IMG/VR virus record: IMGVR_UViG_3300032334_001488
Coordinates: 1-64,000 of that record
DNA from: a virus
Direction: 5' to 3' (one strand)
Length of the DNA: 64,000 bases
Positions 19,003-43,754 of the stretch are shown here, piece by piece (the first letter of the stretch is position 1; each line of letters begins with the position of its first letter). The notes below the pieces were generated by a model. That model was not told the origin of the DNA. It made no database searches and saw only the letters and a program-made list of their open reading frames with translations. Made by a program: the position numbers and the translations under genes.

Positions 19003-19027
19003 TTGTGTGTGATGTGGTTATGTGTGT

Positions 19028-19056
19028 TGAGCCAGTTTAATGTCTTAGCTCAGGAC
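19028..19056 (-). promoter_or_regulatory. Structured leader element A, copy 5
   Basis: GUCC, 7-bp arms UGAGCUA / UGGCUCA (one U-G pair), loop AGACAUUAAAC. 25 nt before the start at 19002 through a CA-rich spacer. Confidence 0.75.
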
Positions 19057-19450: not shown

Positions 19451-19481
19451 TGAAATAAACCTCAAGTAATGTGTGTGTTGT

Positions 19482-19510
19482 TGAGTCAGTTTAACGTCAT
19501 GACTCAGGAC
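19482..19510 (-). promoter_or_regulatory. Structured leader element A, copy 6
   Basis: GUCC, perfect 7-bp arms UGAGUCA / UGACUCA, loop UGACGUUAAAC. This copy changes two stem pairs relative to copy 8 while keeping pairing. 31 nt before ATG 19450. Confidence 0.8.
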
Positions 19511-22894: not shown

Positions 22895-23004
22895 GATGCA
22901 ATCTCCGTAATGAGTTGGATGAATAGAATGCTGAGGCAGTAAATGACACCGATACACACAGTGAGTGTATCGTATGTGTCAATGGACTTTGCTTTGGTTG
23001 TCAT
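22546..23004 (-). CDS. Membrane-anchored ORF overlapping 22541-22894
   Basis: ATG 23004 has GGAGG seven bases upstream, the best ribosome site in the area. Residues 11-36 form a membrane helix (L-T-V-C-I-G-V-I-Y-C-L-S-I-L-F-I-Q). From residue 38 on, the frame overlaps another gene and becomes Ser/Thr/Lys/Pro rich. The start overlaps 23001-23192 as ATGA. The N-terminus is convincing; the long tail may be real or passive. Confidence 0.5.
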   Translation of the reverse strand: MTTKAKSIDTYDTLTVCIGVIYCLSILFIQLITEIASWLLRRNNSSLPKPLATNPLPKRKGVNSIQSKSPTQVLQQFRTTEMSTATNKESCVASGLHKEPTTPLKNTTNLQDGTMSQTLKTSKSGPSTRAARPRRVTKSNTITQTPGLGFSV

Positions 23005-23192
23005 GAACAATCCTCCAATTGTGTTGTGTTGATTTGCTGACATTCCGATAGTTGATCTTGTGTCCAAGCCATTGGCATGTCGTCTTCATCTAGTTCTTCT
23101 TGCATGGCCATACGTTGGTAGTACGCCATGTCTGCTAGTACTTCCCAATGATCAGACCATTCCTGATCAAAAGTTTCCACTGGTTGATGCAC
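23001..23192 (-). CDS. Hypothetical acidic 63-aa protein (GTG start)
   Basis: An upstream ATG lies inside element A8, so I prefer GTG 23192, which has GGAGG eight bases upstream. Product: V-H-Q-P-V-E-T-F-D-Q-E-W, acidic and Met-rich. Overlaps the next start as ATGA. Confidence 0.55.
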   Translation of the reverse strand: MHQPVETFDQEWSDHWEVLADMAYYQRMAMQEELDEDDMPMAWTQDQLSECQQINTTQLEDCS

Positions 23193-23218
23193 TGAGTTAC
23201 CTCCGAATGAATGTGGGT

Positions 23219-23247
23219 TGAGCCAGTTTAACGTCATAGCTCAGGAC
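23219..23247 (-). promoter_or_regulatory. Structured leader element A, copy 8
   Basis: GUCC, 7-bp arms UGAGCUA / UGGCUCA (one U-G pair), loop UGACGUUAAAC. 26 nt before GTG 23192. Confidence 0.75.
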
Positions 23248-24207: not shown

Positions 24208-24365
24208 TAGTAACCTCGTGTAGTAGTTTGAATGTATGCAGCAGAACAATTTGTCCGTTGCAATGTAGCAAAAGCTGCCGTTACAATGCCAATTAAAATA
24301 ACATAAGCTAAGACTTTGCTTGCGTAAAACTTAAATGAATCTATGGGATACATTTGAATTTTCAT
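24207..24365 (-). CDS. Small membrane protein (52 aa)
   Basis: ATG overlaps the stop of 24362-24676 as ATGA, and the stop overlaps the next start. Residues about 18-35 (V-L-A-Y-V-I-L-I-G-I-V-T-A-A-F-A-T) form one membrane helix with a Lys-containing N-side. The perfect overlaps at both ends make it convincing despite its size. Function unknown. Confidence 0.65.
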   Translation of the reverse strand: MKIQMYPIDSFKFYASKVLAYVILIGIVTAAFATLQRTNCSAAYIQTTTRGY

Positions 24366-24676
24366 GGTGTAATCCACTCGTAATCACTTGGTTCATATAC
24401 TGTTTCTGACCCATCATATTCTTCAATACGATAAGGGCCAAACACTTGTGCAATTTTTAAATCAGAACCACAGCCATTAGCTTTTTTGCCAAGTTCTTGT
24501 ACGACTTGCACTAAGATTGGATTGTGACGAGCACAATCATATAAGTATGCACAATTGTTGTGAAGACTGTTGATACTAGTTTCGCCTGTAAATCCTAACT
24601 CTTTCATTCTTGTTAAAGCTTCAGCTGAAATACTGAATCCTCCATAACAAGCGTTGTAAACAACTTTGGTAAGCAT
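24362..24676 (-). CDS. Conserved phage protein of unknown function
   Basis: 104 aa. Starts M-L-T-K-V-V-Y-N-A-C-Y-G-G-F-S-I-S-A-E-A, a start I recall from many conserved phage proteins, then N-G-C-G-S-D-L-K-I and Y-R-I-E-E-Y-D-G-S-E. Function unknown. Leader carries element B1. Confidence 0.65.
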   Translation of the reverse strand: MLTKVVYNACYGGFSISAEALTRMKELGFTGETSINSLHNNCAYLYDCARHNPILVQVVQELGKKANGCGSDLKIAQVFGPYRIEEYDGSETVYEPSDYEWITP

Positions 24677-24701: not shown

Positions 24702-24750
24702 GCAGAACCTTGTGAGTTCTGCAGAGGGCCATTGCTGGCCCAGTGCAGAC
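24702..24750 (-). promoter_or_regulatory. Double-hairpin leader element B, copy 1
   Basis: Transcript order: GUCUGCACU, hairpin GGGCCA-GCAA-UGGCCC (GNRA loop), UCU, hairpin GCAGAAC / GUUCUGC. Lies between 24753-24899 and the start at 24676. Confidence 0.7.
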
Positions 24751-24752
24751 TT

Positions 24753-24899
24753 CTACCAGTCGTAGATACGCACCACGTTTAACTCAACAGGTGATCTGTT
24801 GAGCAACTCTGCGCCTGTGACCAAGGCTTCTGTCTTTGTACGGGCATAGAGCTCTACAACAGAATCCTGGTACCACACTCGCCATAGTGTGCGTTCCAT
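24753..24899 (-). CDS. Small conserved protein (48 aa)
   Basis: ATG 24899 overlaps the stop of 24899-25156 as ATGA. Product M-E-R-T-L-W-R-V-W-Y-Q-D-S-V-V-E-L-Y-A-R-T-K-T-E-A. Resembles short phage proteins of the form Y-R-V-W-x-x-D-x-x-x-x-F-A-R-T-x-x-E-A. Function unknown. Confidence 0.65.
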   Translation of the reverse strand: MERTLWRVWYQDSVVELYARTKTEALVTGAELLNRSPVELNVVRIYDW

Positions 24900-25156
24900 C
24901 ACTCCTCAATGCCATAGGCCTGTTCCCACTTAAGGAACTCCCTATTGCATTGTACTTTCTGTTCTAGTACAGCACAGATAGGCATTAGATCAGTAAACTG
25001 AGTTATCCCATCTTGAAACTGATAAAACAACTCTAGTGCTTGTTGTCTAAGCTTTTCGATTTCCCAATCAATGCATGGGTGTGCACTGGTTGAATCTCGA
25101 CGAGCAAGCAGCCTGACACGCTGAGTTAATAACTCTTCAACGTAGGAAATTTCCAT
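24899..25156 (-). CDS. Hypothetical 85-aa helical protein
   Basis: Helical throughout (Y-V-E-E-L-L-T-Q-R-V-R-L-L-A-R-R, I-D-W-E-I-E-K-L-R-Q-Q-A). Leader carries element B2. Function unknown. Confidence 0.55.
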   Translation of the reverse strand: MEISYVEELLTQRVRLLARRDSTSAHPCIDWEIEKLRQQALELFYQFQDGITQFTDLMPICAVLEQKVQCNREFLKWEQAYGIEE

Positions 25157-25179
25157 GGTGTTGAATTGAGGTGTACTAA

Positions 25180-25229
25180 GCAGACAATGAAGTCTGCAGA
25201 GAGGGCCGTAGCCCTCAGTGCAAACGTCA
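25180..25229 (-). promoter_or_regulatory. Double-hairpin leader element B, copy 2
   Basis: CUGACGUUUGCACU, hairpin GAGGGC-UACG-GCCCUC (UNCG loop), UCU, hairpin GCAGAC / GUCUGC. Overlaps the stop of 25227-25448; 24 nt before ATG 25156. Confidence 0.75.
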
Positions 25230-25448
25230 GTCGCCTAGCTCTGCAAAGAAAGCTTTGGCTAGCTCTTGTGCTTGTAACCAGGCTGTTACTGACATGACTG
25301 CCAGCAAAGGCATGGTTGCACTATTAGAACCAGCAGCTTTCCATTCAAAGCTAAGCTCTAAAGCATACTCTTGTGCTTGCTCTTCTGTTTCGAAGAGCTC
25401 TGGTTCCCCATTTACAGCACAAACGTATGCATTCTTAATGAGTGACAT
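25227..25448 (-). CDS. Hypothetical small protein, paralog of 25511-25663
   Basis: 73 aa from ATG 25448; upstream in-frame codons lie in leader element C1. Pattern N-A-Y-V-C-A-V-N-G-E-P-E-L-F-E-T, E-Q-A-Q-E-Y-A-L-E-L, P-L-L-A-V-M-S-V aligns with the next gene upstream. It has 20 extra C-terminal residues. Function unknown. Confidence 0.6.
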   Translation of the reverse strand: MSLIKNAYVCAVNGEPELFETEEQAQEYALELSFEWKAAGSNSATMPLLAVMSVTAWLQAQELAKAFFAELGD

Positions 25449-25465
25449 TGAATTAATTTGCAATA

Positions 25466-25501
25466 GGATGCATGCGTTATTACAGAGACGCATCCCTCTG
25501 G
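25466..25501 (-). promoter_or_regulatory. Leader element C, copy 1
   Basis: CCAGAGGGATGCGTC, loop, ACGCATGCATCC: a hairpin with alternative pairings (GGATGC/GCATCC or ATGCGT/ACGCAT). Nearly identical to copy 2 over about 36 nt; 17 nt before ATG 25448. Confidence 0.65.
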
Positions 25502-25510
25502 CGTTGATGC

Positions 25511-25663
25511 TTAATCTATGCTACAAAATAATAAACAAGGCATCTCCTTGCCTTCTGCAATTAACTTAGCCTCCAGCTCTTTTGAAAAGCTGGAGGCTTC
25601 ATCCATATCTTTGAAGAATATGGGTGCATCATTGTAAATGCACACGTATTCGTAGTTGTCCAT
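25511..25663 (-). CDS. Hypothetical small protein, paralog of 25227-25448
   Basis: 50 aa from ATG 25663; the longer in-frame ORF to 25726 runs through the leader. Y-E-Y-V-C-I-Y-N-D-A-P-I-F-F-K-D, S-F-S-K-E-L-E-A-K-L, P-C-L-L-F-C-S-I-D aligns with 25227-25448. The gene and its leader appear tandemly duplicated. Confidence 0.6.
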   Translation of the reverse strand: MDNYEYVCIYNDAPIFFKDMDEASSFSKELEAKLIAEGKEMPCLLFCSID

Positions 25664-25677
25664 GTGTTGAATGCAAT

Positions 25678-25714
25678 GGGATGTATGCGTTATTACAGAG
25701 ACGCATCCCTCTGG
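25678..25714 (-). promoter_or_regulatory. Leader element C, copy 2
   Basis: Matches copy 1 at nearly every base over about 36 nt. 14 nt before ATG 25663. Confidence 0.65.
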
Positions 25715-25718
25715 GGCA

Positions 25719-25874
25719 TCAAACAATAGGACGTATGTCCTTGGGTTGAATCCAGTCAGCTAACTTACGTCGTACTGCACGAATGTCAGCTTGGATCATC
25801 TCCTTCGTTTGATCCTTCTCTAGCTTGACTGCTGTTGCCAGCAGTACATTAGACAGGAACTTACGTACAGCCAT
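25719..25874 (-). CDS. Small basic protein (51 aa)
   Basis: ATG 25874, with AAGGAG upstream. M-A-V-R-K-F-L-S-N-V-L-L-A-T-A-V-K, then a helical basic region (D-I-R-A-V-R-R-K-L-A-D-W). Its stop lies just upstream of element C2. Not recognised. Confidence 0.6.
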   Translation of the reverse strand: MAVRKFLSNVLLATAVKLEKDQTKEMIQADIRAVRRKLADWIQPKDIRPIV

Positions 25875-25894
25875 GATGCTCCTTGGTAAATGAA

Positions 25895-25944
25895 GCAGAC
25901 TTGAGGTCTGCAGAAAGGGCCGTAGCCCTTAGTGCAAACGTCAG
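25895..25944 (-). promoter_or_regulatory. Double-hairpin leader element B, copy 3
   Basis: CUGACGUUUGCACU, hairpin AAGGGC-UACG-GCCCUU (UNCG loop), UCU, hairpin GCAGAC / GUCUGC. 21 nt before ATG 25874. Confidence 0.75.
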
Positions 25945-26132
25945 ATCTTGTAGCCGTTCGCTACACACCACTTAGATGTGGCGACTGCCTTATCGGCAGG
26001 CCAATCGTGTGTACGGCATTGTGCTGCCGTTGCTTTATCCAGGGCTTTAACACCCACTGTCGCCATGACTCCTGTAACTGCTAGCCATGGTGCGACCATG
26101 GCAATGTACAGTGCGATGACTTGCTTAGCCAC
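25941..26132 (-). CDS. Small membrane-anchored protein (GTG start)
   Basis: 63 aa from GTG 26132 with GGAG six bases upstream; the longer frame to 26174 enters leader D1. Residues 4-30 (Q-V-I-A-L-Y-I-A-M-V-A-P-W-L-A-V-T-G) form a membrane helix, followed by a soluble part with two Cys (A-A-Q-C, K-W-C-V). Function unknown. Confidence 0.6.
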   Translation of the reverse strand: MAKQVIALYIAMVAPWLAVTGVMATVGVKALDKATAAQCRTHDWPADKAVATSKWCVANGYKI

Positions 26133-26146
26133 AGGAATCTCCTGTT

Positions 26147-26175
26147 GTGCGGTGCCTATCTCCGCTGGAGGCAAT
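26147..26175 (-). promoter_or_regulatory. Leader element D, copy 1
   Basis: UUGCCUCCAGCGGAGAUAGG then CACCGCAC: TGCC/GGCA and TCC/GGA pair around AGC with GAUA bulged. Followed by ACAGGAG, the ribosome binding site of 25941-26132. Confidence 0.65.
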
Positions 26176-26334: not shown

Positions 26335-26349
26335 AGAAAACTCCTGTGT

Positions 26350-26378
26350 GTGCGGTGCCTATCTCCGCTGGAGGCAAT
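26350..26378 (-). promoter_or_regulatory. Leader element D, copy 2
   Basis: Identical core to D1, preceded by an extra hairpin (CUGGGGGG / CCCUCCC, 26379-26405) and the shared GUACCAUGCGUGAUGC segment. Followed by ACAGGAG. Confidence 0.65.
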
Positions 26379-26420
26379 AACTGTGGGAGGGTTTGCACCC
26401 CCCAGCATCACGCATGGTAC

Positions 26421-26624: not shown

Positions 26625-26681
26625 GACTTAAATAAGCCACACTCAGTGTGTGGCAATAACCAAAGGGAGAGTTGCACTCCC

Positions 26682-27094: not shown

Positions 27095-27124
27095 GTGCGG
27101 GGTGCTAATCTCCCCTGGTAGCCA
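27095..27124 (-). promoter_or_regulatory. Leader element D, copy 3 (diverged)
   Basis: GGCUACCAGGGGAGAUUAGCACC: GCUA / UAGC and CC / GG pair, with AG loop and GAGAU bulge. The arms differ from D1 and D2 but keep pairing; CC-AG-x-GG-AGAU is conserved. Followed by CAGGAG. Confidence 0.6.
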
Positions 27125-27139
27125 ACCATCGGAAATTTA

Positions 27140-27157
27140 AAAGGGCTACCGCCCTTT
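27140..27157. terminator. Hairpin between modules
   Basis: AAAGGGC-TACC-GCCCTTT; a T-run follows on the plus strand (CTTTTTT), a weaker TTTTAAATTT on the minus. A second hairpin CCCACC / GGTGGG follows at about 27167-27190. The 276-bp stretch 27082-27357 holds no gene. Confidence 0.6.
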
Positions 27158-41415: not shown

Positions 41416-43754
41416 TGGCGGTCGATGCAAAAGCTAGATTAAAAGAAATTATTGACGCTACGGTCGAAAAAGATGGGTCGGCGCATGTCGATACCATGGT
41501 CGTTGGGTCGCACTTGGCACAAATGAAGATGTTCGGCATCCGTCAGGGTGTCGAATTTTTTCCTTCCCAAGATAACTTTGGCAATCAACGTAAAGATTTC
41601 CTTGATCGTGTAGTTAAATACAACCAGTTAGATACCAGGCTTGATTCCATTTGGGACTACTTCTTGTGTGATGGAAAAGGCATTTTTTACATTCGCCCTA
41701 CTCAGTCCAACTATCGCCTGTATTATTTTCGTAACCATGAATATCGTAGTTATTACAACGTTGATGGCCAGCTGGATGAAGTCGTAATCATCTACAGTTA
41801 TAAGGTTAAGAAGGGCAATGGCTTTGGTGATAACATTGCGGTAAGCAATATTACAGGTACGCAAACCCTTGGCGCACAGGGAGCCAAGCGTTACATCAGG
41901 CTTTCGATTAAACGCCGCACCATTGAAGAAACGCATTCAGAAGGCGAGATGTCTTTTGATATGCCCAACTATACTGCACTTGGTAAAACAAAGAAATTTG
42001 ATAACACTCTCGGATTTATTCCTTGCGTAGAAATCTTTAATAATCCCAAGGGTTTTTCGACCGAAGGTACGGGTGAATTTGATGCTTTTGCTTCTCACAT
42101 TACTACGCACGATGAACTGGTACGCACCATGCGTAAAAACGTTCAGTTCTTTGGTAATCCAACTCTTCTTTCTTCCAGGCCTAAAACAGACCTTATGGAG
42201 TCAGGTTCAGACTCCGCTGTTCAGCGTCCATCCATTGCAGCAAACTCAGGCTTTGGAAGCCTTGGCGCACTAAGCCGTTCTACATTCAAGGCTGATCCCA
42301 TTGGTCGAAGCAGTGTAGATGGACAGATTCGCGTGCCACGGGTCATTGCAAACCTGGAGCCAAACGATAGGGTTGGCTATATTGTGCCAGATGCTATTAC
42401 TGGTGATCAAAACGCATTTGCTCGTACGTATCGAGAAGAAATTCGCACTGCCCTTGGTGGTGTAGATGAACTATCAATTTCCGCTGGCGTAACTGCAACT
42501 GAATACAAATCATTGTTTGGCCGTGTAGCTGCAACATCAAAGAAAAAAGCTATTGCTATTTATACTTATGGGATTGCACGTTGCCTTGAATTAATTATTT
42601 TTCAAGAAGAAAGATTGTTCAGGGCGTCGTTAGCGCATGCCGCAGGTTTTGAGGAACCTGTGGAACCCCCGGAGGATGCACCGCCAGAGGAAAATCAAGC
42701 ATACAAAGAAGCTGTCACTGGGTTTGATGAAAAAGTCAAACAAGTCATGATGGCTTGCATGGAAACCAAGATTGTTCCACCTGGTGTTACGGGACTAATT
42801 CCTGATGGTGACGTAACAGTTCTTTGGCGTTGGACGGGTCCTGTGTATGAGGAATCAACACAAGATGTTTTGAACAACTCTATTGTTGTTAGAAACCTAC
42901 AGGAGTTAGGTGTTGATAGCATTGAAGCACTGAAGTTTCTCTTTCCGTCAAAAACGGATGAGGAACGAGCCGCAATGTTAAGCGGTTTCCCGTTCAGGAT
43001 GGTAGGCGAATTGCAGAATGCATTTTCTCAATTTGCTCGCCTTGTGGGTGGAATGATGCAGACCCCCCACCCGGAGTCACCGGATCTTCCGATGGCTGCG
43101 GATCCAAGGCTGGATCTAACACCGTATCTGTATCGAACACTAGAAGCATTACAAAAGGAGATGAGTTATGCAGGACGCTACCGTCCAATCGATCCCACAG
43201 ACGAGCCCAGTGTCGTCAGTAGCTCCAAGCAGCTACGTGATGGCGGCTCCGACTCCGACGCAAGCGGTGGCGGTCCAGGCCCCCAGCTACCAGCAAGCGC
43301 CGGCACCCCAGGCGTATCAGGTGGGTACCAGTTACCCCCAAGCGGTACCTCAGGCGACGCCCAACTACCAATACGCCCCTACTCAGTACGCCCCCCAATC
43401 CCAACCGAACTACTCAGTGCCCTCTCAGGAGGCACCGGTCAGCAACCCATGGGAATCGGCGTTCAACAAGGTGGTCAACCTACTGAGCGCTCCAGTCCAA
43501 TCCCCCTTCCAGGGTCAACAGTCGACTCCGACGACTCAGTACGCCCCGGCCAATTATGGAATGCAGAGCAGCCCCCAAGCTTTGCAACCCTTGGGGATGC
43601 AGACCTCATATCACAGCCAGGCCTCATCGCCCAGCTATTCCCAAACCTCGTCAGCTCCTTCCTTGGAGCAAATCGCGGACCTGGTGGGGATGGGGCAGGA
43701 AAGCCGCCAAGTGATGGACGCGTTCGGAATCGAGGCGCCCGCCGTTCTAAATAA
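41415..43754 (+). CDS. Portal protein with an overlapped C-terminal tail
   Basis: 779 aa. Residues 1 to about 590 are mixed alpha/beta with features seen in portals: a strand-rich wing (Y-R-L-Y-Y-F-R-N-H-E-Y-R), a long helix (E-L-V-R-T-M-R-K-N-V-Q-F) and the position after TerL. The final 195 residues are Gly/Pro/Ser-rich, end R-N-R-G-A-R-R-S-K, and share DNA with the start of 43168-44178 in another frame. Forms the DNA entry and exit ring of the head. Confidence 0.8.
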   Translation: MAVDAKARLKEIIDATVEKDGSAHVDTMVVGSHLAQMKMFGIRQGVEFFPSQDNFGNQRKDFLDRVVKYNQLDTRLDSIWDYFLCDGKGIFYIRPTQSNYRLYYFRNHEYRSYYNVDGQLDEVVIIYSYKVKKGNGFGDNIAVSNITGTQTLGAQGAKRYIRLSIKRRTIEETHSEGEMSFDMPNYTALGKTKKFDNTLGFIPCVEIFNNPKGFSTEGTGEFDAFASHITTHDELVRTMRKNVQFFGNPTLLSSRPKTDLMESGSDSAVQRPSIAANSGFGSLGALSRSTFKADPIGRSSVDGQIRVPRVIANLEPNDRVGYIVPDAITGDQNAFARTYREEIRTALGGVDELSISAGVTATEYKSLFGRVAATSKKKAIAIYTYGIARCLELIIFQEERLFRASLAHAAGFEEPVEPPEDAPPEENQAYKEAVTGFDEKVKQVMMACMETKIVPPGVTGLIPDGDVTVLWRWTGPVYEESTQDVLNNSIVVRNLQELGVDSIEALKFLFPSKTDEERAAMLSGFPFRMVGELQNAFSQFARLVGGMMQTPHPESPDLPMAADPRLDLTPYLYRTLEALQKEMSYAGRYRPIDPTDEPSVVSSSKQLRDGGSDSDASGGGPGPQLPASAGTPGVSGGYQLPPSGTSGDAQLPIRPYSVRPPIPTELLSALSGGTGQQPMGIGVQQGGQPTERSSPIPLPGSTVDSDDSVRPGQLWNAEQPPSFATLGDADLISQPGLIAQLFPNLVSSFLGANRGPGGDGAGKPPSDGRVRNRGARRSK

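Follow-up and report, generated by a model that had tools for sequence, protein, structure and literature searches.

A three-strand RNA element with a built-in stop codon recurs between genes of unrelated cyanophages

The window, meaning the whole 64,000-nucleotide stretch of DNA analysed here, is part of a 66.5-kb virus record (IMG/VR IMGVR_UViG_3300032334_001488). The freshwater cyanophage S-EIV1 is a relative of the window phage, with a family A DNA polymerase that is 66% identical. Three copies of an RNA element were observed between short genes, all reading on the minus strand as those genes do (Table 1). A sequence-only reading had described them as paired hairpins at 24702-24750, 25180-25229 and 25895-25944, and all three were present with the stems and loops quoted for them. 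Homologues of the MLTKVVYN gene downstream of copy 3 lie 3' of the element in three other contigs (L002, L110, L128). A megablast search with an 11-kb stretch found no matching phage record, and Rfam 15 gave no match at gathering, with two sub-threshold matches at E<=5, both off the element. When searched by cmsearch with our model R1, copies 1 and 2 scored 77 and 78 bits, both being within the model's own alignment, while copy 3, outside the model-building set, scored 32 bits.

Table 1. Element copies and adjoining genes in the window
Feature	Positions	Strand	Stop codon	s1	H1	s2	s3	Remarks
Element copy 1	25895..25943	-	TGA 25943-25941	GTTTGCA 25939-25933	AAGGGC-UACG-GCCCUU 25930-25915	TGCAGAC 25912-25906	GTCTGC 25900-25895	
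Element copy 2	25180..25229	-	TGA 25229-25227	GTTTGCA 25225-25219	GAGGGC-UACG-GCCCUC 25216-25201	TGCAGAC 25198-25192	GTCTGC 25185-25180	
Element copy 3	24702..24755	-	TAG 24755-24753	GTCTGCA 24750-24744	GGGCCA-GCAA-UGGCCC 24741-24726	TGCAGAA 24723-24717	TTCTGC 24707-24702	
Gene upstream of copy 1	25941..26174	-						Stop codon is the element's stop; start provisional
Gene downstream of copy 1	25719..25874	-						51 aa; AAGGAG ahead of ATG
Gene upstream of copy 2	25227..25493	-						Stop codon is the element's stop
Gene downstream of copy 2	24899..25156	-						MEISYVEELL..., 85 aa; relatives in S-EIV1 and other phages
Gene upstream of copy 3	24753..24902	-						49 aa; stop is the element's TAG
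Gene downstream of copy 3	24362..24676	-						MLTKVVYN..., 104 aa

Other repeats were also observed in the window. A repeat folding as UGAGCUA-loop-UGGCUCA occurs on the minus strand at 19020-19056, 19474-19510 and 23211-23247, and the hairpin of the 23211 copy contains the start codon of the ORF at 23001-23237; this is probably the repeat that had earlier been called family A. A 43-nt repeat (25459-25501 and 25672-25714, 95% identical) lies ahead of two small genes, has related sequences in contigs L158 and L171 and may likewise offer competing pairings.

The element runs in the order stop codon, one nucleotide of any kind, s1 (7 nt), CU, hairpin H1, UC, s2 (7 nt), another free nucleotide, UCA and s3. 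Folding paired the lead-in GUUUGCA (s1) with UGCAGAC (s2), which is also the 5' strand of the second hairpin, formed with GUCUGC (s3). Since the lead-in and GUCUGC pair with the same strand, the element consists of three strands, with H1 between s1 and s2. Pairing of s1 with s2 gives one long hairpin, in which UGA:UCA, one mismatch and the 7-bp s1:s2 stem make up 11 positions, followed by a CU/UC pyrimidine internal loop and H1 on top; pairing of s2 with s3 gives the second hairpin of the double-hairpin form, in whose loop the UCA opposite the UGA of the upstream gene is located. The two pairings are mutually exclusive and both are conserved, as in bistable RNAs controlled by ribosome position. 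The sequence-only reading was thus correct about the two hairpins and about a lead-in that includes the upstream stop codon, but incomplete, as the lead-in is a third structural strand and competes with s3 for s2. The structure is strongly supported; its function is a proposal.

Covariation was evaluated on 11 aligned copies, where 99.2% of cells were paired in the double hairpin and 99.4% in the long hairpin, with four and five pair changes on both sides, respectively. Loose descriptors gave an excess of chance matches and were tightened, and of 58 candidates seven were removed by hand as chance or antisense matches, leaving 51 distinct elements. For s1:s2, 93.6% of cells were paired with 70 double changes (shuffles 77.0% and 21); for s2:s3, 94.8% with 75 double changes (shuffles 72.0% and 22); and the base of H1 had 103 double-changed cells against 24 in shuffles. 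None of 2000 shuffles equalled the observed double changes in any of the three; the shuffles ignore the relatedness of the elements, so these figures are not probabilities. The count of extra pair types in the 51 elements was no higher than in shuffles, and the paired percentages are biased upward, since the elements were gathered by descriptors that require much pairing. Stronger evidence comes from the s2 base triples and from the excess over shuffled genomes. At s2 positions 3 to 7 the base changes jointly with both partners, giving the triples U-A-U, C-G-C, A-U-A and G-C-G at single positions, and 41 of the 51 elements satisfy both pairings at five or more of six positions. In related phages totalling 543 kb, a descriptor free of sequence letters matched 30 times; the shuffled background was 4.2 matches per set and fell to 0.8 when stop:UCA pairing was also demanded. 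Both pairings are under selection. The copies are not due to chance, as further viral contigs carry exactly this element. The earlier claim that RNA structure is selected is strongly supported by covariation, G-U pairs and recurrence in unrelated phages. A G-U pair at one s1:s2 position in 27/51 elements, along with the sense-only orientation, argues for RNA and against a DNA-level palindrome or recombination site, which we rejected. An integron attC site was also rejected, as judged by eye, because the arrangement does not match the R'/R'' orientation of such sites.

The H1 loop was UNCG in 20 of the 51 elements, GNRA in five and another sequence in 26, so a stable tetraloop is not obligatory. 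Exchange of UNCG and GNRA loops, as had been proposed, was observed across contigs, between orthologous sites that precede the MLTKVVYN gene or follow the MEISYVEELL gene (window 24747, L002:4475, L110:5707, L165:6950). Within the window the proposal did not hold, as the GCAA loop sits on a wholly different stem, which indicates a replaced hairpin and not a simple loop swap. Stable loops in half of the copies, the intercistronic position and the presence of several copies per genome would also suit a passive stabiliser or insulator, one that blocks exonucleases and separates cistrons with neither cleavage nor switching, the redundancy of s1, s2 and s3 providing robustness. A passive hairpin would not need strands that covary three ways and keep the same stability ranking throughout, and 41 of the 51 elements retain both pairings; we regard this explanation as unlikely. 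The internal-loop bases were kept in many candidates (CU in 41/58, UC in 45/58). Together with the sharing of the element by unrelated phages of one host group, this could point to a binding site at the three-strand junction for a phage or host RNA-binding protein or a small RNA, for example one timing early expression; the letters of s1, s2, s3 and H1 are largely exchangeable and leave few fixed bases to read, making such a site quite improbable.

Folding energies place the two states in a consistent order. Calculated energies favoured the long over the double hairpin in 50 of the 51 elements, by a mean of 4.9 kcal/mol, and when flanking sequence was included the probability of s1:s2 exceeded 0.5 in 48/51 (median 0.84), with s2:s3 near 0. 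With the long hairpin favoured to this extent, s2:s3 requires that s1 be blocked or removed, and the double hairpin is predicted to be a second state that arises once s1 is removed or occupied. In an RNA cut one base before s2, s2:s3 is predicted to form with a median probability of 0.98. The third strand is predicted to weaken re-annealing of the cut products by 3 kcal/mol; products lacking s3 are predicted to be mostly separate already at 100 nM, so s3 is unnecessary for release alone.

The stop codon forms part of the element. It was one nucleotide from s1 in 47 of the 51 elements and two nucleotides away in the remaining four, which are the TAG copies. UGA was used in 46/51 elements, compared with 147 of 352 (42%) long open frames of these genomes (p about 2e-11, with a crude six-frame count as background and elements that are not independent of one another). 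The stop was paired as UGA:UCA in 36 elements, UGA:UUA in six and UAA:UUA in one, the single UAA copy being that of S-CBP3. The last sense codon before the stop was of 17 different kinds with no conservation, and many copies had, by eye, a second in-frame stop 9 nt beyond the first; stop-codon readthrough was rejected on these grounds. The distance from s3 to the next start codon was 17-29 nt in 38 of 45 leaders, about 22 nt, and the leader is G-poor, with an SD-like 4-mer in only 10/45.

Intercistronic C(UUCG)G hairpins are known from phage T4. Like these, and like the T4 gene 60 bypass hairpin (PMC3014915), the element has a hairpin just after a stop codon, with a stable tetraloop in about half of the copies, but the T4 hairpins are not known to have a second, competing partner strand and the cyanophage element has no take-off and landing codons. 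The stop codon, tetraloop hairpin and gap of ~50 nt resemble the gene 60 layout (PMC3014915), in which a ribosome hops from the stop into the next gene. No matching pair of take-off and landing codons and no single continuous product were found; the last codon varies and each downstream gene begins at a start codon of its own, a fixed distance away, so bypass was rejected as very improbable. An intrinsic terminator was also rejected, as no U-run stands behind H1 (UCUG follows); in terminator scoring only the second hairpin of copy 1 scored weakly, with the tail UUCAUUUACC. Distinct from the element, an H1-like AAAGGGCUACCGCCCUUU followed by CUUUUUU was observed at 27140-27157 (plus strand), resembling an intrinsic terminator and lying between divergent gene blocks.

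A base-paired stop codon in nearly fixed register, with UGA enriched, is consistent with an RNA switch gated by translation termination, in which the long hairpin would be the resting state and would be opened by the ribosome at the built-in stop. With the stop in its A site, a ribosome would extend over the stop, the spacer, s1 and the CU (about +4 to +16) as far as the foot of H1, where, from the general geometry of the ribosome, its leading edge would halt. By taking s1 away it would let s2 pair with s3, as the energy difference above demands; with s1 availability set by the terminating ribosome, the state of the junction would report upstream translation and tune the stability or reinitiation of the next gene. 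Bistable attenuators controlled by the ribosome are exemplified by the trp leader, which would be alike, if the switch is right, in having one strand with two exclusive partners and a ribosome whose position chooses between them; the cyanophage element differs in having no terminator U-run as output and no leader peptide with regulatory codons, and in following an ordinary gene. Against an output of this kind, no conserved pairing of s3 with a Shine-Dalgarno sequence or start codon was evident by eye, and the leaders are poor in G and in SD-like motifs. We consider the switch, the main rival of the reading favoured below, possible but doubtful, and say the same, no more firmly, of a new class of stop-codon-embedded bistable RNA in which termination at UGA would open the long hairpin and the junction would gate processing or expression of the next gene.

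Pattern scans of IMG/VR and the covariance model located the element in the S-EIV1-like contigs L002, L068, L110, L127 and L128, in S-CBP3 (L126) and in the G+C-rich contigs L124, L125 and L129-L133, where an ArdC-type anti-restriction gene is among the genes 3' of it. Protein searches added loci of the DUF7222 gene and of the MEISYVEELL gene, many of which carry further copies with very different letters, e.g. AGTTACA/TGTAGCT/AGCTAC, GATTACA/TGTAGTC/GACTAC and TCTCTCA/TGAGGGA/TCTCTC for s1/s2/s3. A total of 78 instances were observed at 52 loci, some of which share one contig, and genomes carry several copies. The isolates with copies are S-EIV1 and the T7-like Synechococcus phages S-CBP3, S-CBP4, S-RIP2 and KBS-P-1A; the hosts of the metagenomic members are inferred from these isolates. 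All copies found in S-CBP4 and S-RIP2 belong to the early region and precede the RNA polymerase gene. The covariance model saw no copy in S-EIV1, and the sequence-free descriptor found one there, at record position 42717 (minus strand), directly after the stop of the MEISYVEELL homologue. The ATG (ATGTCTTACCCCGATC...) 3' of this copy (L123 12714, record 42717, minus) may open an unannotated frame between AHV82199 and AHV82198. The first 8 kb of P-SSP7 and the T7 early region yielded no copy, and plasmids gave no match. A host-borne element was rejected, as the sole strict-pattern match among genome contigs (L144) was a 5-of-6 stem with the rest of the element absent. A search for related leaders elsewhere, which had been suggested as a check, thus found relatives to be common, in keeping with the original reading.

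S-SBP1, S-TIP37 and Syn5 have other hairpins at similar places. A second intergenic repeat was observed on the minus strand of the window (26349-26403, 26146-26175, 26652-26681 and 27096-27125), a GGGGUGCAAACCC-type hairpin followed by UUGCCUCCAGCGGAGAUAGGCACC. Similar hairpins (GGUGCAAxxCC, then UAUUGCC...GCGGGG) lie 3' of the DUF7222 gene in S-SBP1 (L241 1330-1410) and S-TIP37 (L243 1424-1525), the same position that holds the three-strand element in S-CBP3/4 and S-RIP2; their GCAA loop could pair with the UUGC downstream.

The reading we favour, tentatively and at somewhat below an even chance, is that the element serves as an intercistronic endonuclease site, like the RNase III sites of T7, and refolds once it has been cut, with H1 left as a 3' cap and s2:s3 as a 5' cap. 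Before cleavage the RNA would be in the long irregular hairpin. A host endonuclease specific for double strands, most likely RNase III, would cut between H1 and s2, in the 3' strand of the internal loop. The upstream message would then end in H1, close behind its stop codon, and the hairpin would resist 3' exonucleases. On the downstream message, s2 freed from s1 would pair with s3 to form a hairpin at the extreme 5' end, where it would protect the monophosphorylated terminus against RNase J and RNase E. All sequenced cyanobacteria have RNase III genes, and their RNase J, absent from E. coli, is a 5'-3' exonuclease on non-triphosphorylated ends (PMC10989914). When one RNase III cut leaves the 3' end folded, the processed message is stabilised (PMC6993053). 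Synthetic cassettes with the RNase III sites R0.5/R1.1 and a ribozyme-borne 5' hairpin follow the same idea of a cut plus a 5' hairpin on the cistron; they are man-made from separate parts, while in the cyanophage element one strand, s2, would do both jobs (PMC6993053).

We prefer cleavage because the plan of the long hairpin and the letters of its internal loop resemble those of the T7 early RNase III sites, because S-CBP4 and S-RIP2 have the element in the early region, and because cleavage would give s3 a clear role in forming a 5' hairpin some 22 nt before the start codon. The T7 sites R0.3, R0.5, R1, R1.1 and R1.3 are likewise irregular hairpins between early genes, with a lower stem, an internal loop and an upper stem, the plan found here; the identity of the T7 RNase III sites and their cut positions were reportedly given by Dunn and Studier in 1983. 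The T7 internal loop reads ACU(C) and CUUU(A/C)UG, and a GCAA loop occurs in R0.3 and R1.1. H1 with its internal loop reads ACU-NAGGG...CCCUUUCUG in many cyanophage copies and ACUC-AAGGG...CCCUUUAUGA in T7 R0.3. At the foot of the R0.5 hairpin the UGA stop of gene 0.4 is paired with UCA (L246 931-1001, T7 record 1430-1500), as in the cyanophage element, and the S-CBP4 and S-RIP2 copies precede the polymerase gene much as the T7 early sites lie around that of T7. The T7 sites differ in having longer upper stems, weaker lower stems and no s3 in the folds shown, and, apart from R0.5, a stop codon at no fixed register.

Several observations count against processing. H1 has only 6 bp in many copies, which may make the duplex short for RNase III. 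A T7-type site would call for about two helical turns of stacked duplex; with mismatches counted, the element has 11 lower positions (seven in the four TAG copies) plus the base pairs of H1, reaching 17-18 in 28/51 elements and 20 or more in 18/51. The nearly fixed register of the stop codon is not required by a pure processing model, and the ribosome model accounts for it better. That S-SBP1, S-TIP37 and Syn5 manage with other hairpins also weighs against processing, as does the predicted separation of the cut products even when s3 is absent. A literature search found no transcript data for the element-bearing phages. The cleavage and ribosome models can be combined: cleavage would then be held off for as long as a ribosome occupies the stop.

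The element is a structured RNA with no Rfam match, common to at least three cyanophage groups and with unusually clean three-way covariation, and it is carried by the cultured phages S-EIV1, S-CBP3, S-CBP4 and S-RIP2. If processing is true, the element would show how phages whose hosts have RNase J overcome a difficulty that T7 does not meet in E. coli, with one strand that first forms the site to be cut and later caps the resulting end. If the ribosome-gated model is true, the element would be a new kind of RNA switch, spread through unrelated cyanophages. Under either model it would provide a compact natural part to separate genes in cyanobacterial operons.
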